Origin: Verrucomicrobiia bacterium
Lineage (GTDB): Bacteria; Verrucomicrobiota; Verrucomicrobiia; JABWAM01
Direction: 5' to 3'
Assembly: GCA_020849895.1 (NCBI GenBank)
Contig: JADZFN010000066.1
Location: 50,852-114,851 of the forward strand
DNA length: 64,000 nucleotides
A program made the translations under genes and the position numbers. Below are positions 40,991 through 50,945 of this stretch, piece after piece; position 1 is the first letter of the stretch; each line of letters begins with the position of its first letter. The notes beneath the pieces were generated by a model that was not told where the DNA came from, made no database searches, and saw only the letters and a list, made by a program, of their open reading frames with translations.

Positions 40991-42043
40991 TCAGGGGACG
41001 ATGGCGGGGCGGCCCACCCAGAAAGGGAGGCGCATTCCCCGTCGGAAGGCGGCGAGGGCTTTCGGGGAGGAGTTGACACGCAGGTTGCTCCAGGTCTCGT
41101 CGGCGTTCTCCCAGCGTTCGTGCCAATAGACGGCGGCTCGTAGGCGGGGGTAATCCTTCGCCATCGCGGCAAACGCTTCATCGAAGAAGTCGGCCTTACT
41201 GCCGTCGCGGGGAAACTCGCCGACGCCCCATTCGGCGAGCATGATCGGTTTGGTTTTGTCGAGCCGGGCGAGTTCGCTATACGGATATCGCATCACGGTG
41301 TCGAAGGTGAGCCAGCCCTCCTTGTCGCTCTGTTTTCCGTAGACGCTGAGCCCGAGCCAATCCACGACGTCGTCGCCCGGGTAGTAGGCGGTGATCGTGT
41401 TCCACGGGGCGACAGGCCAGGAATAGTTTTGCGCGTGATAGACCCATTGGATGTTCCGCGCGCCCGCCTCACGCACGATCCGTACGACGTGGCGATACGC
41501 GGCGATGTAGCGTTCGGGACCGTCGGGTTTTTTCGGATCGCCGAAACCGCGTGTCGCGCCGCCCCCCTGGTTGGAGCCGCCCCAAGGGAACCAATCGCCG
41601 TTCGCCTCGAGGCCGAAGGAGACGAGCAGAGGGATTTCCGCCATGCGGGCCTCGCGCGCCCATTCGCGGAGGTAGCCATCGAAGCGGCCTTCGAGGATGC
41701 GATCGAGAGAGTATTCGGGCTGGAGTTCGTTCTGCCGGTAGGGCGGCCCCCAGGGGGACCAGAAGATGAGCGGCACGGCGCCGTAATCCCGCACCGTCCG
41801 GACCTGGACGTTCGGAAAGGATTTCTGACCCCAGAAGCTCGAGAAGGCGACGATCGCCTGCTGGCGGCCAACCAGCAACTCGAAGTCGCGGAGCATTTCG
41901 GACGTCAGGGTGTCTTCTGTATCGCCGATGCAGAGGTACGCGCCGTTGTAGGCGCCGCGCTCGGGAACGGCGAGGCGTTGTCCCTGTGCGGGAAAGGGCG
42001 CGAAGATGAGGAGTGTCAGGAGGGCGAGAGAAAACCGTTTCAT
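40991..42043 (-). CDS. Secreted GH26-like glycoside hydrolase
   Basis: Signal peptide 'MKRFSLALLTLLIFAPFPAQGQ'; 'FGLEANGDWFPWGG' (acid/base region) and 'IMLAEWGVGE' (nucleophile region). ATG overlaps upstream gene stop (ATGA). Confidence 0.75.
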   Translation of the reverse strand: MKRFSLALLTLLIFAPFPAQGQRLAVPERGAYNGAYLCIGDTEDTLTSEMLRDFELLVGRQQAIVAFSSFWGQKSFPNVQVRTVRDYGAVPLIFWSPWGPPYRQNELQPEYSLDRILEGRFDGYLREWAREARMAEIPLLVSFGLEANGDWFPWGGSNQGGGATRGFGDPKKPDGPERYIAAYRHVVRIVREAGARNIQWVYHAQNYSWPVAPWNTITAYYPGDDVVDWLGLSVYGKQSDKEGWLTFDTVMRYPYSELARLDKTKPIMLAEWGVGEFPRDGSKADFFDEAFAAMAKDYPRLRAAVYWHERWENADETWSNLRVNSSPKALAAFRRGMRLPFWVGRPAIVP

Positions 42044-45000
42044 GCGGAGGGAGAGATGATGTGCACGGTGGCTTTTCGGGACACCTTGCCCCAGGACACG
42101 AGCGCGCCGCGGAGCGCTCGTCGGAAGGCGCCCCAGATGACGATGCAGAGGAGGGGGCGATACACGACGCGCTGCGGGAGGACCCAGAGGGCGTGGCGGA
42201 GTGGTTCGCCGTCGAGCCGCAGGGCAAGTGCGGCGAGGAAAAGGTCGGCCGCCAGGAACGCAGCGAGAAAGGCCAGGACGAGGGCGCCGCCGCCTCCGAG
42301 GACGGAGAGGATCACGATCAGGTCCACGAGAGGCGCCGTGGCGCCCAACAGGATTTGGAAAAACCAGAGGCTCGGCATGGCGATCCAGCCGAAGGTGCCG
42401 GCGCGCGGATTGAACAGGGCGTCGCGATGTTTCCAGAGGCACTGGAGCGTGCCGAAGGCCCATCGGGAGCGTTGCTTGAGGAGACCGTTCACGCTCTCGG
42501 GGCATTCGGTCCATCCGTAGGCGCGCGGGGCATAGGCGATGCGCCAACCGTCCTTGCGGATCTGCATCGTGAGGTCGGTGTCTTCGGCGAGGGTGTCGGT
42601 GCTGAAGCCTCCCGCTTCCTCGATCGCCGCGCGGCGATACGCGCCGATGGCGCCCGGCACCACGGTGATGCAGTCGAGGAGGGCGAAGGCGCGGCGGTCG
42701 AGGTTGAATCCTGCCGTGTATTCGAGGGCCTGAAACTTCGCGAGCCAACCGCGGCGGTTTCCGACGCGCGCGTTGCCCGAGACCGCGCCGACGTTCGCGT
42801 CGGCGGCGAACGGCGCCACGAGATGATCGAGCGCACCGCGTCCGACGTGGGTGTCGGCGTCAATGGAGATGAGGAGGTCGTGCCGGGCAGCGGCGAGCGC
42901 GGCGCGGAGGGCGCCTGCTTTGCCGGCGTTGGGCTGGGAGATCAGGCGGACGCGTGCGTCGCCTCGGAATGCGGAGGCGACGACCGCGGCCGTTGTATCG
43001 GTCGAACCGTCGTCCACGACAACGACCTCGAGGGCTCCGGGATAGCGAGAATCGAGCGCGGCGCGGACGGCGGCTTCGATGACGCGTTCCTCGTTGTAGG
43101 CGGCGATGACGACGCTCACCGGAGGAAATGCCTCCGGCGCGAGTGGCGCGGAGAGGCGAAACTGGCGAAGGGCGAGGGCGGCGACCGCGACGGAGCGGAA
43201 GACGACGAGGACCGTGGCTACCACGAGAAAGGCCCAGACGAAACAGAGAAAACGGTGGACGACGGAAAGCCCGAAGCTGGTGGCGAGGATCGTGCCGCGT
43301 TCCGTGTGCGGGACCGGAGGCATCGCTTGGTCATGGGGGATGCCGGCCAGTTCGCTGGCGGTGACGAAACGCACGGGGCGATGGTGCGAGTCGCGCAGCC
43401 ATCGGATCATCGGGCGGAGGGCCTCGACGGTCTGGCGGCGGTCGCCTCCGCCGTCGTGGAGGAGGACGACGGAGCCTTCCGAGCGAAGATTCTTCACGCG
43501 GCGGAGGATCTCATCGGCGCCGGGACGTTCCCAGTCGCGCGGGTCAATGTTTTCGCAGAGGGTGAGGTAGCCGAGTTCCTGCGCGCGCAGGATGGGGCGG
43601 ATCTCGGCTGCCGTTTGCGGACGGGAATCGGCGGCGTAAGGAGGGCGGAAGAGGATCGTGGAACGTCCGGTGAGCGCTTCGATCAGGCGCTGGGTGGCGT
43701 TGAGCTCGAGGTCGAGATGCACGCGCGGTGTTTCCGAGAGATCCGGATGCGTGTAGGTATGCACGCCGACTTCGTGCCCCTCGCGCACCATGCGCGCGAC
43801 GAGGTCGGGATATTTTTCCGCAGCGCTGCCGACGAGGAAGAACGTGGCGCGGACGCCTTCGGACTTGAGGATGTCGAGGATCGCCGGCGTCCATCGCCGG
43901 TCCGGGCCGTCGTCGAAGGTGAGGGCGATCCAGTTCGGAGTGACGGCGCCTCCATGCTCGACTCGGAGCGGACGCGGGGCGTCCAGATAACGAGAGCGGA
44001 TGCGCCCGTCGGGAAGAGGGTCGAACGTCCGGAGGCCGGGCGCGCGCTCGGGAAGCACGTGGAGCACTTCTCCTTCGCCGATCTGGAAAACGTGGTCCGG
44101 AAGATCCAGGTGAGCGAGAGGCGCCCAGTCGGCATCGCCGACGGAGCGCCGCCGGGCGAGGGCGAGCGCGTCCCAAAGACCGGGATCTTCGCTGCCGAGC
44201 TTCCAGACGCCGAGGCCGGCGACGCCCGCCGCGCGCGCGGCGCGCGCCTGGTTGTAGGCGGTGGCGGCGTCGAGGAACCAGACGGTGTGCTGCTCCTCGC
44301 CCTTCGCGTAGGAGAAGGAGGGATTGGCTTCGGCGTCGCCCCATTCGATTTCCACAGGTTCGGCGCTGTCGGCGAGGCTCATCGCCTCGGCGAAGGAGAT
44401 CTCCCGACCCACGGGGCCGATGAGCGGCCAGTCGCAGCCGAAGTTGCCGATCGTGGCGATCCATCGGCCCGGGCGGCCGAACTCGAGCATGCGGCGCAGC
44501 CAGCGCTCGAACCAGGGTTGAGAGGCGAGCGGCCCCGGAGGATCGTGGCGGGAGTTTTCGTTGCAGAGCATCGCGACGAGGTAATCGGCGTGGTCCACCA
44601 GGCGGTCGAGGTCGAAGACGAGTGCGTCCCAGCCCACCGGGACGCAGACGAAAAAGAGGAGGCGTTCCTCGTGGCAGCGTGTGGCGAAGCGGATCAGGAA
44701 ATCGTTGAATTCGTCGGTGTAGGCGGCGTCCACCTCCTCGAAATCCACGGCGAGGCCGTCGCAGTGTTTGGATTTTGTGAGGCGAACCGCGCGCTCGATG
44801 AAGGCGGCGCGGGCCTCCTCGGGGCCGGTCACCAACGCGGCGAGGAGATCACCCCGCCATCCGTCGAGTTCGTTCGTGAGCAGGGCGACGACCTTGAGTC
44901 CGTACTGGCGGGCGAGGCGGCGCGCCTCCGGGCTTGCGGAGAAGGCGAGGTCGAGCTTTTCGTTCGCGAGGGAAAGCCAGCGCGGGCAAAGGTGAGTGAG

Positions 45001-45402
45001 GCGCGGAGCTGCGCGGGCCAGCGCGGCGAGCGCCGCCGGGCGTTCGTCGTCGAGGAAGCCGAGGGTGATGAACGCCGAGGGGCGCGAGGACGGTCCTGCG
45101 GTGGCGCGACGGCGGTCCCGTTCGAGAGGGGCGAGGGAATGGCGCGGGGTGGACGTTTCCTCCCGCCGCGTCGCGCGGCGGGGCGGCGGCGGCGGGCGTT
45201 GGAGGGCGCGGAGCTGGGAGCGGAGCGTGGCGACCGACGGCGGAAGGCGGAGGGAAGGGCGTTCGAGGAGGGAGCGCACGAAGACGAGGGCGGCGGCGAA
45301 CAGGACCGCGCAGGCGGCGACCGTGGCGAGGCGGATGATTTTCCATCGCCGGCCGCGCGCGTCATGGAAAATAAACCGGCGCGAAGGCGCGGGGTGAGTC
45401 AT
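42040..45402 (-). CDS. Trifunctional GH18-like / CE4 polysaccharide deacetylase / processive GT2 membrane synthase
   Basis: N-terminal TM; 'CDGLAVDFEEVD' GH18 motif; 'IALTFDDGPD', 'HTYTHPDL', 'FRPPYAADSR' NodB motifs; TM; 'VSVVIAAYNEERVIEAAV', 'VVVDDGSTD', 'EDTDLTMQI', 'LLKQRSRWAFG' (QxxRW). Confidence 0.9.
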   Translation of the reverse strand: MTHPAPSRRFIFHDARGRRWKIIRLATVAACAVLFAAALVFVRSLLERPSLRLPPSVATLRSQLRALQRPPPPPRRATRREETSTPRHSLAPLERDRRRATAGPSSRPSAFITLGFLDDERPAALAALARAAPRLTHLCPRWLSLANEKLDLAFSASPEARRLARQYGLKVVALLTNELDGWRGDLLAALVTGPEEARAAFIERAVRLTKSKHCDGLAVDFEEVDAAYTDEFNDFLIRFATRCHEERLLFFVCVPVGWDALVFDLDRLVDHADYLVAMLCNENSRHDPPGPLASQPWFERWLRRMLEFGRPGRWIATIGNFGCDWPLIGPVGREISFAEAMSLADSAEPVEIEWGDAEANPSFSYAKGEEQHTVWFLDAATAYNQARAARAAGVAGLGVWKLGSEDPGLWDALALARRRSVGDADWAPLAHLDLPDHVFQIGEGEVLHVLPERAPGLRTFDPLPDGRIRSRYLDAPRPLRVEHGGAVTPNWIALTFDDGPDRRWTPAILDILKSEGVRATFFLVGSAAEKYPDLVARMVREGHEVGVHTYTHPDLSETPRVHLDLELNATQRLIEALTGRSTILFRPPYAADSRPQTAAEIRPILRAQELGYLTLCENIDPRDWERPGADEILRRVKNLRSEGSVVLLHDGGGDRRQTVEALRPMIRWLRDSHHRPVRFVTASELAGIPHDQAMPPVPHTERGTILATSFGLSVVHRFLCFVWAFLVVATVLVVFRSVAVAALALRQFRLSAPLAPEAFPPVSVVIAAYNEERVIEAAVRAALDSRYPGALEVVVVDDGSTDTTAAVVASAFRGDARVRLISQPNAGKAGALRAALAAARHDLLISIDADTHVGRGALDHLVAPFAADANVGAVSGNARVGNRRGWLAKFQALEYTAGFNLDRRAFALLDCITVVPGAIGAYRRAAIEEAGGFSTDTLAEDTDLTMQIRKDGWRIAYAPRAYGWTECPESVNGLLKQRSRWAFGTLQCLWKHRDALFNPRAGTFGWIAMPSLWFFQILLGATAPLVDLIVILSVLGGGGALVLAFLAAFLAADLFLAALALRLDGEPLRHALWVLPQRVVYRPLLCIVIWGAFRRALRGALVSWGKVSRKATVHIISPSA

Positions 45403-45424
45403 CGCGAGAAGACGCCGCGGACGG

Positions 45425-47983
45425 TCAGAGCCATTTTCGCCGCGCGCGGAGCGTGGCGAGCTTCAGGTCCTGGGCGGCGAGCTCAACGATCTGGGCGACG
45501 CGATGGCGGAGGCGCGCCGAGGCGAGGAGGAGGATGGCGAGCCAAAGGGTGACGGCGCAGAACCAGACGCCGATGAGGCGATAACCCTGGGGGGAGGTCG
45601 TCGCTTCGAAACGGAGCCAGGCGAGAAAGCTCACGACGGCCACGGGAATGGCGACCATGCGCGAGAAGACGGTGGGGCTGGGATGCAGGCGAACGCGGGT
45701 GAGGCGCTTGCCGTCGCCGTGTTCCTCGGTGAGCGACAGGACGCGGATCTGCCACAGGCGGTTGCCGTAGACTTGGTAGTCCCAGTTGCTCCAGCCGGTG
45801 TCGGCGGAGGATTTCCAACCTTCCTGTTCGAGGCGCTTTTGGAATGCGGACAGGAATTGTTCGCGACCGACGCCGGCTTCACTCCAGAAAGAGAGCAGGG
45901 CGGGGCGGTCCCATTCCACGGCCTGGGCGCGACTTGCGGAGGCGGCGCCGACGACCCGGCGCGGCGTGCGTTTCTTGCGTGCCCAGGTGGAGTAGCGGGC
46001 CCATCCGCGGGCGATCGGCTGCCAGAAGGCGAGCGCGACGATGAGGAGGCGGCTCCAGGGGCGGCGGGAGCGCGCTTCGACACGGGCGTGGAGGGCGTAG
46101 GACGCAGCAACGCTGAGGGATCCCGCGAACATCACCGCGGGCAGGTACCAGATCGCGTGAATCTGCAGCGCGACGAGCAACGCGACGAGCGCGGCGACGT
46201 TCCATTCGAGGCTGCTCATGAAGAGCACGAGGTCCGAGGTGCGGCTCGGATAGACGCATTGAAAAAGCCCCATACCGAAGACCCCGTGATACACGATCGG
46301 ACGATGGAGGAGGGAGGAGAAGTTCGTGCCGCCGTAGACGCGCCCCCGCCAGCGCGCCGAACCGGTCGGCCCGAAATAAACGAGATGCTTGAAACGCAGC
46401 AGGGCCTCGGCTTCGCCGTAGCCTTCCTGTTGCCGGAGATAGGCGCGCACATTGAAGCGGCGATGGTGCCAGACGATGGCTGAAGGGCTGAACCCGATGC
46501 GGTGCCCCCGCTGCATCAGTCGCCAGCAGAGGTCCACGTCGTCGCCCGCCTTGCGATATTCGGGATCGAATCCGCCGATGAGTTCGAGCGCCCAGCGGTG
46601 GAACGCCATGTTGCAGCCGGGGATGTGTTCGGCCTCCATGTCGTCAATGAGCACGTGGCTCGGCTGGCCTGGCGAGGCGGCCACGCAGGCCTGCACCCAG
46701 TTCTGGGCGGGCGGTGAGACGTTCGGGCCGCCCGCGGCGGCGAATCCGCCCTGTTCGAGCGTGCCGACGAGGTAATAGAGCCAGTCTTTGTCGGCCATGC
46801 AGTCGCTGTCGGTGTAGGCGATGATTTCGCCTCGGGCAGCCCGCAGGCCGACGTTCCGGGCCACGCTGAGCCCCAGATTTTCCTGCTTGAGATAGCGGAC
46901 CTTCGGGAAGTCTCGGACGATCTGTTCCGTGGAGTCGGTGGACCCGTCGTCCACGAGGATCACCTCGAAATCGGGATAATCCATCTGGAGGAGGGAGGTG
47001 AGGCAGGCCTCGAGCGTGCGTGCGCCGTTGTAGGAACAGACGATGACCGAAACCGGCGGGACGCGTGGAAGCGGAACGCGGGGGCTGCCCTTGAAAAGCG
47101 CACGCACCTCGGCGAGGGCCTTCTTCGGCGCGCGCGCGGCGGTCACGAGACCGAACTTCCAGTCTTCGACGAGGTGGCCGCCGGTGAACCATTCGTCGGT
47201 CCAGGAGAAGAGGATCGTTCCCGCAAGCCCGTGCCGCGCGACGGCTTCGATGTGTCCGCGCAGGAGCGCCGCCTGTTCCTCCTCGGAATGGCGGACGGTA
47301 TCCATCCCAAACTCGCTGAGGATGAGCGGTTTTTCCCCGGCGAGATTTTGGAGCCGCGAGAGGTAGCCTTCGAAATCTCGCGCCCGGTGCAGGTAGACGT
47401 TGTACGAGAAGAAATCCATCGCGCCTGGCAGCAGGTATTCGGTGGGGGGATAGTTCGCGTAGGTGTAGAGGGGGCGCGGGTCGGCCTGGCGGGCGGCGTC
47501 CAACAACTCTTCGAGAAAGGCCTCGATCTTGCGCGACCCGTACCAGCGGACGATCCCGGTCGGGATTTCGTTGCCGATGGCCCAGGCGAAGATCGCGGGG
47601 TGATCCCGCCGTGCGCGCCCGGCGGCGACGACCCGCTCGCGAATCGAGCGGCGCGTCGTTCGGGCGTCGAGGAAGCAGACGTGCTGTTCCCACGGGATCG
47701 TCACGTAGGCCTTGAGGCCGGCGGCCGCGCACTCGTCGAGGAATCCTAAAGGCGGAGGATGATAGAGGCGCACGGTGTTGATGCCCGCGTCCGTCATCCG
47801 GGCAAAATCGTCGCGCGCGTCCGCCGTCGTCGGAAGAAACACCGGGGTGCCTCCCTCTTCGCGGGGCGGGAACGGACCGTAGGTGACGCCCTTGACGAAG
47901 AACTTGCGGCCGCCGTGAAAGAAGAACTTCGAGTTGGCGGAGACGCGTGGGGTGGCGGAACGGCCCTGATGAGATTCAGACAT
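45425..47983 (-). CDS. Bifunctional GH2/GH-A-type TIM-barrel domain fused to GT2 glycosyltransferase with C-terminal TM segments
   Basis: 'FFHGGRKFFVKGVTYGPF', 'IFAWAIGNEIP' (acid/base E139), 'LILSEFGMD' (nucleophile E224), then 'VSVIVCSYNGARTLEACLTSLL', 'VILVDDGSTDSTEQ', 'AGDDVDLCWRL'. No signal peptide or TM before or between the domains. Confidence 0.88.
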   Translation of the reverse strand: MSESHQGRSATPRVSANSKFFFHGGRKFFVKGVTYGPFPPREEGGTPVFLPTTADARDDFARMTDAGINTVRLYHPPPLGFLDECAAAGLKAYVTIPWEQHVCFLDARTTRRSIRERVVAAGRARRDHPAIFAWAIGNEIPTGIVRWYGSRKIEAFLEELLDAARQADPRPLYTYANYPPTEYLLPGAMDFFSYNVYLHRARDFEGYLSRLQNLAGEKPLILSEFGMDTVRHSEEEQAALLRGHIEAVARHGLAGTILFSWTDEWFTGGHLVEDWKFGLVTAARAPKKALAEVRALFKGSPRVPLPRVPPVSVIVCSYNGARTLEACLTSLLQMDYPDFEVILVDDGSTDSTEQIVRDFPKVRYLKQENLGLSVARNVGLRAARGEIIAYTDSDCMADKDWLYYLVGTLEQGGFAAAGGPNVSPPAQNWVQACVAASPGQPSHVLIDDMEAEHIPGCNMAFHRWALELIGGFDPEYRKAGDDVDLCWRLMQRGHRIGFSPSAIVWHHRRFNVRAYLRQQEGYGEAEALLRFKHLVYFGPTGSARWRGRVYGGTNFSSLLHRPIVYHGVFGMGLFQCVYPSRTSDLVLFMSSLEWNVAALVALLVALQIHAIWYLPAVMFAGSLSVAASYALHARVEARSRRPWSRLLIVALAFWQPIARGWARYSTWARKKRTPRRVVGAASASRAQAVEWDRPALLSFWSEAGVGREQFLSAFQKRLEQEGWKSSADTGWSNWDYQVYGNRLWQIRVLSLTEEHGDGKRLTRVRLHPSPTVFSRMVAIPVAVVSFLAWLRFEATTSPQGYRLIGVWFCAVTLWLAILLLASARLRHRVAQIVELAAQDLKLATLRARRKWL

Positions 47984-48308: not shown

Positions 48309-49484
48309 ATGAGGGAGGGGTGGCGTCGGAATCTCGCGCAGAGGACCGTCACGACGCGAATGAAGGCGATGCGGGACGCTAAACCTCTTCCGCTTTCGAC
48401 CGGGTGTTTGCCGGCGTTGAGGCGCCGCATTCGCGAGGGCGTGCGCGAGTTGCTTCCCGCCTATTTCGCCATGCCGATGGCGACGGGCGTAATCTCGATC
48501 GCCGCCCATTTTCTGGATCTCCCGTTGCTCGCACACGCCTTGTTCTGGCTGAACCTCGTCCTCTACGCGGCGCTCTGGCTGATGACCTTCGCGCGCGTGC
48601 GGTTTTATCTTCAGGACCTGCTTGCCGACTGGAGTGATCATCAGCGTGGCGTCGGGTTCTTCACCACCGTGGCGGCGACGAACATCCTTGGATCGCAGTT
48701 CGCGATCGTTCGTGGCGATCAAGCGGTCGGATTCGGATTGTGGTGGGTGGGTCTGGTCCTCTGGAGCCTCTGCATGTACGGGATTTTTACCACGTTGACC
48801 GTGAAGGAGAACAAGCCCTCGCTCGCGGAAGGGATCAACGGAGGCTGGCTCACCGCCGTGGTCGCCACGCAGTCCCTTTGCGTTCTGGGCTGTGCGATCT
48901 CTCCCGCCTTCGGCGCGCATCGCGCTCCGGCCCTTTTCATCATGCTGATCCTATGGCTCTGCGGCGGGATGCTCTACATCTGGCTCATTTCCCTCATCTT
49001 TTATCGCTACAGCTTCTTCCGGTTTCCCGCCTCCGACCTGAACCCGCCCTATTGGATCAACATGGGCGCCATGGCGATCTCCACGCTGGCGGGCACGGCG
49101 CTCATTCGCAACGCGGAGGCCTCCGAACTCCTGCGATCGCTGCGCCCGTTTCTCCAGGGATTCACGCTCTGGTACTGGGCGACGGCGACATGGTGGATCC
49201 CCATGCTGTTCATCCTGGCCGTCTGGCGCCACGGCCTGAAGCGTTTTCCGGTCGCCTACGATCCGCTCTTCTGGGGCGCGGTCTTTCCGCTGGGCATGTA
49301 TGCGTCGAGCACGTTTCAACTGGCGCGCGTGGTGGAGCTGCCGTTTTTGATTCCGCTCGCCCGGGGGTTCCTTGTCGTGGCGCTGGCCGCGTGGACGCTG
49401 ACCTTCCTCGGCCTCCTCCGATGCCTGATGCCGTGGGAGAGTCCTTCGGATGCCGGGCGATTGCACAAAGGCGACTTTTCTTGA
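48309..49484 (+). CDS. TDT-family transporter (tellurite resistance / C4-dicarboxylate, TehA-like)
   Basis: 'LLPAYFAMPMATGVISIAAHFLDL', 'GFFTTVAATNILGSQFAIV', 'WTATWW-like FTLWYWATATWWIPML', 10-TM pattern. Confidence 0.75.
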   Translation: MREGWRRNLAQRTVTTRMKAMRDAKPLPLSTGCLPALRRRIREGVRELLPAYFAMPMATGVISIAAHFLDLPLLAHALFWLNLVLYAALWLMTFARVRFYLQDLLADWSDHQRGVGFFTTVAATNILGSQFAIVRGDQAVGFGLWWVGLVLWSLCMYGIFTTLTVKENKPSLAEGINGGWLTAVVATQSLCVLGCAISPAFGAHRAPALFIMLILWLCGGMLYIWLISLIFYRYSFFRFPASDLNPPYWINMGAMAISTLAGTALIRNAEASELLRSLRPFLQGFTLWYWATATWWIPMLFILAVWRHGLKRFPVAYDPLFWGAVFPLGMYASSTFQLARVVELPFLIPLARGFLVVALAAWTLTFLGLLRCLMPWESPSDAGRLHKGDFS

Positions 49485-49523: not shown

Positions 49524-50945
49524 ATGAACCGCCGTTCGATTTCAGCAGCCTTCGTCCGCACCTTGGTTTTTTTTGTCGTGAGTTCGGGGGTGCCGATTCG
49601 CGCGGACGACGCCTTGAAGGCCGAGGCGGCGCCGTCTGCAGGACACGGGATGGAAAAGGTCGTTTCGTCCGCGACGGACCCGTGGGTGCTGTTTGACGGA
49701 AAACTCCGGTGGAGCGCCCAGGAGCGCCTCCGCGCCGAGTGGCGCGAGAATAACTTCGATTTCGATCGCGGGATCAACTCCCTGACGGACGACGCCTGGC
49801 TGCTCCAGCGTTTCCGCCTCGGACTGACAGCGCGGCCCGTCGAGCCGCTCACGCTGATGGCCGAGGGGCAGGACGCCCGGGAGTTCGGCAGCGCGCGTCC
49901 GAACGTTCCGGGCGCGCTGGGCGCTGAAGGCGACGACGAATTTGACCTGCGCCAGGCGTGGCTGCAGCTCGCGGACCTGAAGACGTTTCCGGCGGGCCTG
50001 AAAGCGGGACGAATGCCGTGGGGTTACGGCGACCAGCGCCTGATCGGCGAATCCGATTGGGGCAACTTCGGGCGCGTCTTTGACGGGGCTGTCGTCTTCG
50101 CGGAGTTCGGCAAGGCGCGGCTGGACGTCTTCTTCGGAAGCCCGGTGCTCACCCAGCCGACCAAACTCAACCCGGACGACGGGCACGACCGCCTCGCGGG
50201 CGTCTATTTCTCCTCGAAAGAATGGCTCGGTCAGACGACCGAATTCTATGTCCTTCGCCGCCGCCATACGAACGCGATTAACAACGGGCAGGCGCAGGAG
50301 ACCTGGACACCCGGAGTGCGTGCGAGCTCTCGTCCCGGCGCGTATGGCGGCTGGGATTATGAGGGTGAGTTCGCCGGCCAGGCGGGCACGGTGGCGTCCT
50401 CGACCACACCGTTCATCTCGAAACCGCACGAGGCGTTCGCCTCGCACATTCAGGGAGGCTACACATGGTCGGAGGATGCGTGGAAACCGCGTGTGGGCCT
50501 TCTCTACGATTATGCGTCGGGCAACTCGGATCCGAACGGGAGCACGGACACGAGCTTTCAAGGTCTCTTCCCGACGAACCATAAATTTTACGGGGGGATG
50601 GATCTTTTTGCGTGGCGAAACATTCACGATGGAGCATTGAGCCTTTCGTGCGAGCCGCGCCTGGGCGTAAGCGTGAAATTGGAACTGCACACCTTCTGGC
50701 TGGCAGAGACGGCGGACGCCTGGTATCGCGCGAACGGGTTTACCGTGGTGCGTCCCGCGGCAGCGGGCCGCAACGTGAGCGGTCACGTCGGGGAAGAGGT
50801 GGATTTCGTGCTGGGATGGAAGATCAATCGCTTCCTTACCCTCGGAGGAGGGTACAGCCATTTCTTTGCGGATGGTTTTCCGCGCGCGACGGGAAAAGCT
50901 TCCGACGCCGATTTCGGCTACCTCCAGCTCACCGCGGGCTTCTGA
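49524..50945 (+). CDS. Alginate export family (AlgE-like) outer-membrane beta-barrel protein
   Basis: Signal peptide; 'LRWSAQERLRAEWRENNFDF', 'LQRFRLGLTARPVEPLTLMAEGQDAREFG', 'FDLRQAWLQLADLKTFPAGLKAGRMPWGYGDQRLIGESDWGNFGRVFDGAVV', C-terminal 'YLQLTAGF'. Confidence 0.82.
   Translation: MNRRSISAAFVRTLVFFVVSSGVPIRADDALKAEAAPSAGHGMEKVVSSATDPWVLFDGKLRWSAQERLRAEWRENNFDFDRGINSLTDDAWLLQRFRLGLTARPVEPLTLMAEGQDAREFGSARPNVPGALGAEGDDEFDLRQAWLQLADLKTFPAGLKAGRMPWGYGDQRLIGESDWGNFGRVFDGAVVFAEFGKARLDVFFGSPVLTQPTKLNPDDGHDRLAGVYFSSKEWLGQTTEFYVLRRRHTNAINNGQAQETWTPGVRASSRPGAYGGWDYEGEFAGQAGTVASSTTPFISKPHEAFASHIQGGYTWSEDAWKPRVGLLYDYASGNSDPNGSTDTSFQGLFPTNHKFYGGMDLFAWRNIHDGALSLSCEPRLGVSVKLELHTFWLAETADAWYRANGFTVVRPAAAGRNVSGHVGEEVDFVLGWKINRFLTLGGGYSHFFADGFPRATGKASDADFGYLQLTAGF

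Follow-up and report, generated by a model that had tools for sequence, protein, structure and literature searches.

A candidate poly-N-acetylglucosamine-type synthase cassette in Verrucomicrobiia pairs a GH18::CE4::GT2 fusion with a secreted GH26-type enzyme

The PgaABCD and IcaADBC systems contain a PgaC/IcaA-like family-2 glycosyltransferase (GT2) and a polysaccharide deacetylase as several separate proteins, and PgaB carries a hydrolase domain of the GHL13/GH153 type. A more compact arrangement is known from Streptomyces, where MatAB is required for PNAG and MatB joins an extracellular CE4 deacetylase to an intracellular GT2 through a transmembrane helix (PMC5972031). MatA, equally required for PNAG, is a membrane protein in which no domains have been recognised (PMC4391728; PMC5972031). 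MatB is reported with these two domains and without a GH18 domain, and no GH26 partner is reported for MatAB.

The window analysed here, a stretch of 64,000 nucleotides from a Verrucomicrobiia bacterium, carries three genes on the minus strand: a GH-A::GT2 gene (45425-47983, 852 aa), a GH18::CE4::GT2 fusion gene (42040-45402, 1120 aa) and a gene for a secreted GH26-type enzyme (40991-42043, 350 aa). The features on which the original prediction was built, a common strand, a gap of 22 bp (45403-45424) between the first two genes and an ATGA overlap of 4 bp (42043-42040) between the fusion and GH26 genes, are all present in the sequence, and the two overlapping genes would probably be co-transcribed. 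The promoter and terminator scan was uninformative, the RNA element scan found none and PADLOC gave no match for a defence association.

We examined the architecture of the fusion, all on the minus strand. It starts with a putative cytosolic motif, RFIFHDARGRR (residues 9-19, 45346..45378; consensus RPIFFDPxGRR), followed by a first transmembrane helix, TM1 (residues ~20-46, 45265..45345, by hydropathy; helix 18-46 in the structure model). A GH18-type TIM barrel follows (residues ~112-416, 44155..45069), with the catalytic motif DGLAVDFE, in which DFE occupies residues 220-222 and E222 lies at 44737-44739. Next come a CE4 deacetylase domain (residues ~488-685, 43348..43941) with all five NodB motifs intact (TFDDG, HxxxH, RPPY, DxxDW and LLHDG), a second helix, TM2 (residues ~709-735, 43198..43278, by hydropathy and model), a GT2 synthase domain (residues ~760-984, 42451..43125) with DD, DAD, ED and QRSRW (residues 977-981), and C-terminal membrane helices (residues ~1003-1102, 42097..42396, by hydropathy and model). 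Pfam recognised Polysacc_deac_1 (4e-34), GT2 families (up to 2.5e-32) and Glyco_hydro_18 (3e-6), the last slightly below its gathering score (27.6 vs 29.6 bits). This weak GH18 assignment is upheld because the predicted fold is that of GH18 enzymes: in the structure model (pLDDT 83), that part resembles chitinase 5jh8 and SleL 4s3k (2e-20), and other parts resemble the CE4 deacetylase Bc1960 and the processive GT2 hyaluronan and cellulose synthases. A deacetylase, a GH18-like domain and a QxxRW-bearing GT2 are thus confirmed in one polypeptide of 1120 aa. Motif alignment showed the GH18, CE4 and GT2 active sites of the window protein to be intact, and the catalytic CE4 and GT2 positions are kept in 87-88 of 88 relatives, the first GT2 Asp being Asn in five.

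Hydropathy and the positive-inside rule fit a topology in which the stretch from TM1 to TM2, carrying GH18 and CE4, would lie outside and GT2 inside. For the fusion this agrees with the hydrolase/deacetylase-outside, glycosyltransferase-inside arrangement originally proposed; for the GH-A domain the proposal probably does not hold, as that domain is probably cytosolic since neither a signal nor a hydrophobic or transmembrane segment precedes residue 584 of the GH-A::GT2 protein.

The best NCBIfam match of the GT2 domain is PgaC/IcaA, then NodC, with CelA weaker. Against PgaC_IcaA (TIGR03937) it reaches 205.8 bits, under the equivalog cut-off of 422.3, so that GlcNAc is a probable rather than a proven substrate. 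The likeness to PgaC suggests a beta-1,6 linkage as in PNAG, and the likenesses to GH18, NodB and NodC suggest a beta-1,4 linkage as in chitosan. Where the Pga system uses several proteins there is a single polypeptide here, and the hydrolase is GH18 (plus GH26) instead of the PgaB domain. The latter, PF14883, is absent from the window's own genome (the E. coli control was positive), and the equivalence to PgaB that had been drawn is dropped. Likewise, the PgaA model TIGR03939 gave nothing over its cut-off in this genome, only sub-threshold TPR-like matches. These absences, which leave no assigned route across the outer membrane, count against the synthase reading given below. Divergent from the cluster lies an outer-membrane barrel of the Alginate_exp family (PF13372, 7e-61; 49524-50945, plus strand), next to a SLAC1-type transporter (48309-49484); the barrel was considered as a candidate exit pore and not adopted, being near the cassette in no other locus searched.

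The best equivalogs of the CE4 domain are PdaB, NodB and PgdA. The nearness of CE4 to peptidoglycan GlcNAc deacetylases, the nearness of the GH18 domain to the spore-cortex enzymes SleL and YdhD, and the cassette's lack of an outer-membrane exporter would suit a role in peptidoglycan remodelling, or in making short chitin-like oligosaccharides, with no exopolysaccharide. The resemblance of the MatB CE4 to PgdA points the same way. Against it stands that a PNAG surface layer depends on MatB, whose CE4/GT2 architecture matches that of the fusion (PMC5972031). Together with the PgaC-like processive synthase, its QxxRW motif and its C-terminal membrane helices, this makes peptidoglycan or oligosaccharide metabolism an improbable function.

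The distribution of the three genes was surveyed in 141 genomes of the class, with GH26 counted at E<=1e-15. The fusion occurs in 26 genomes, and GH26 in exactly those 26 and in 0 of the 115 others (Fisher 6e-29, a significance overstated by the relatedness of the species). In 22 of the 26, the gene directly downstream of the fusion and on its strand is GH26; in the other four, GH26 sits on another contig. One genome, G058, has two tandem pairs. At least seven families (f1, f8, f14, f30, f32, f37 and f41) include genomes with both genes as well as genomes with neither, so that the association does not stem from shared ancestry alone. The unit supported by this distribution is the pair of fusion and GH26 genes, a two-gene cassette. 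The proposed tie of the GH26 gene to the fusion is in this way borne out. The Verrucomicrobia fusions form one clade in the trees (support 100/98 and 100/99).

The third gene behaves differently. The GH-A::GT2 protein (Pfam Glycos_transf_2 5e-34, Glyco_hydro_2_C 1e-7) was found in 87 of the 141 genomes. It is next to the pair in just two fusion genomes, the window's own and that of its congener, and not in the other 24. The original prediction was of a three-gene heteropolymer operon, in which GH-A::GT2 would add a second sugar. The common strand and the 22-bp gap, conserved in both genomes of the genus, speak for it, as does the presence of the gene in 26/26 fusion genomes vs 61/115 others (p 8e-7, again overstated because the species are related). 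But those 61 genomes lack the pair, the gene is kept in most relatives from which the pair is missing, and its neighbourhoods in other loci showed no conserved or common partner. With this class-wide distribution the three-gene operon was rejected as a candidate, and a true heteropolymer operon is very unlikely. Co-location of the three architectures thus fails for GH-A::GT2 outside the window's genus, and holds for GH26. GH-A::GT2 is a separately conserved, class-wide gene and a passenger, not a core part of the cassette, to which it may have a loose functional link. The protein itself appears to be a cytosolic glycosidase-like domain joined to GT2, with both clan GH-A Glu positions kept in 20 sequences; its structure model, made from a two-sequence alignment, had a pLDDT of 34 and was unusable.

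The fusion is also found, without GH26, in Sphingomonadaceae, Rhodobacterales, Deinococcus, Prevotella and Blastocatellia, and 11 non-Verrucomicrobia fusion genomes tested contained no GH26 homologue. One genome scan yielded 79 fusion loci, mostly from Sphingomonas and Novosphingobium, whose neighbours usually vary between loci and include no polysaccharide genes; plasmid records with the fusion come from Sphingobium, Sulfitobacter, Limimaricola, Deinococcus and Prevotella nigrescens. The fusions of Sphingomonadaceae, Deinococcus, Prevotella and Rhodobacterales share domain order and length with that of the window at roughly 33-44% identity, and differ from it in being stand-alone in the Sphingomonadaceae loci and coupled to a DUF3131 gene in Rhodobacterales. 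Outside Verrucomicrobia they are annotated just as 'glycosyltransferase' or 'glycosyl transferase family 2', and we found no report of the GH18::CE4::GT2 architecture, its pairing with GH26 or the GH18 decay described below in the part of the literature covered. A widespread and unstudied family, present in several phyla, is hereby linked to a characterised PNAG system.

This link runs through Actinobacteria, which have CE4::GT2 proteins without GH18. CE4 outside, a PgaC-like GT2 inside and a transmembrane helix between them in one polypeptide are features of MatB and of the fusion alike, and the deacetylase/synthase fusion, put forward as a novelty, is already known from MatB (PMC5972031). 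The N-terminal motif, in which F12, D14, G17 and R19 are invariant in 40 sequences and which is followed by the transmembrane helix, also starts the actinobacterial CE4::GT2 proteins of loci L065 and L195 (2e-9 and 3e-8). In a Streptomyces plasmid locus (L194) the CE4::GT2 protein itself has no such motif, and the motif profile matched instead a small gene upstream of it at a distance of 14 bp (i-E 5e-5, against ~0.3 for the next unrelated frame), a match that comes from this one locus and a near-identical second plasmid. The upstream gene sits at the position of matA, with a gap of 14 bp where an overlap is reported for matAB. The MatA-type segment would then be a separate gene in Streptomyces and fused N-terminally in the window protein, and we infer, likening MatA by gene position, that the fusion corresponds to MatA motif, GH18 and MatB. 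A cytosolic FxDxxGRR motif with one transmembrane helix offers a lead on the nature of MatA. In Kocuria rosea (L195:3734-7039), a GH18-like 'chitinase' gene (Pfam GH18 8e-5, under the cut-off) lies 45 bp from the CE4::GT2 gene and is convergent with it, a split form of the fusion.

The state of the GH18 catalytic Glu was then compared between lineages. It is kept in 64/64 sampled fusions of the main set, from outside Verrucomicrobia and without a coupled hydrolase. In Verrucomicrobia, where GH26 is coupled, 12 of 25 copies retain it and the other 13 carry Q, S, N, R or G at that position. In Rhodobacterales none of six keeps it, Ser standing in all six read; a DUF3131 gene, which we take to encode a hydrolase, lies directly downstream in five of them, with a 4-bp overlap in three. 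In the sixth, the gene is fragmented, with insertion sequences after it. In the Rhodobacterales plasmids with this arrangement (L193 and L200-L203), the GH18 domain is full length and unrecognisable to Pfam. At least seven changes of the Glu state are required on the tree. Loss of the Glu goes with presence of a partner at the level of lineages, of which two have partners, so that confounding remains. Most simply, trimming may have passed to a separate secreted hydrolase, which would have relaxed selection on the fused GH18. A testable rule can be offered from this pattern: a dead GH18 domain would accompany a coupled partner hydrolase. In the window's genus both hydrolases, GH18 and GH26, still appear catalytically intact. 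Degenerate active sites had been named as evidence against the proposed function; the window protein has none, and about half of its Verrucomicrobia relatives have one in GH18, where the degeneracy is informative rather than refuting.

The partner gene matches Glyco_hydro_26 (Pfam, 8e-13), and its two conserved catalytic residues, E146 (41606-41608, minus strand) and E271 (41231-41233, minus strand), are invariant in 19 GH26 sequences, including those beside a decayed GH18. GH26 enzymes, unlike those of GH18, are independent of the N-acetyl group, and the enzyme could therefore cut deacetylated stretches. No characterised GH26 is known to act on amino-sugar polymers, which speaks against the reading given below, and the specificity predicted here is not known to have been described. 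The closest solved enzyme is the C. thermocellum lichenase Lic26A (2bvd, 1e-27), of the same GH26 family by sequence and with both catalytic Glu aligned. This kinship would suit a beta-glucan, neutral or mixed, of the lichenan or cellulose kind, with GH26 as a lichenase-type editor and CE4 removing O-acetyl groups or acting on another glycan; in other bacteria, mixed-linkage glucan is a product of family-2 synthases (PMC10374906). We nevertheless regard such a glucan as an unlikely product, since the GT2 domain is nearest to GlcNAc enzymes and the GH26 clade departs from Lic26A next to the acid/base Glu: residue 145 is L, N, V or C and no His as in Lic26A, with Leu, Asn, Val, Cys, Ile or Thr as replacements across the clade, a loss that fits a possibly altered -1 subsite. 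Moreover, GH18 enzymes generally need the N-acetyl group for catalysis, and no sampled lineage without a coupled partner has lost the GH18 Glu. Several fusion genomes (G151, G058, G093, G009, G098, G018 and G044; loci L184-L190) encode at another site a second GH26 paralogue, more distantly related (32-39% identity) and bearing a GTE motif, which at E<=1e-15 is found in 0 class genomes without the fusion.

On balance, the sequence data make it fairly probable that the two-gene cassette is a self-contained synthase of the poly-N-acetylglucosamine type, the trimming of whose product has been shifted repeatedly to a separate secreted enzyme; the original idea of a synthase, deacetylase and hydrolase in one protein with a bias to amino sugars finds support here. 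The GT2 domain would polymerise a beta-linked, probably GlcNAc, chain at the cytosolic face and pass it through the fusion's own membrane helices. Outside, the CE4 domain of the same polypeptide would strip some N-acetyl groups from the emerging chain, and a hydrolase would trim or release it. In the ancestral form the GH18 barrel of the fusion would do this; in Verrucomicrobia the task may have gone to the secreted GH26 coupled to it, letting the GH18 Glu decay repeatedly. More tentatively, and with somewhat less than even confidence, we propose that a synthase carrying its own deacetylase and hydrolase has repeatedly handed the hydrolase step over to unrelated secreted families (GH26 and DUF3131), that the GH26 clade represents a novel activity, directed at an aminosugar polymer that has lost part of its N-acetyl groups, and that the N-terminal motif is the functional core of MatA.

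A separate arrangement that looks conserved was seen in one acidobacterial and one myxococcal MAG (L072 and L073), where a PgaC-like GT2 lies between a TPR/barrel gene and a gene for a large secreted protein.
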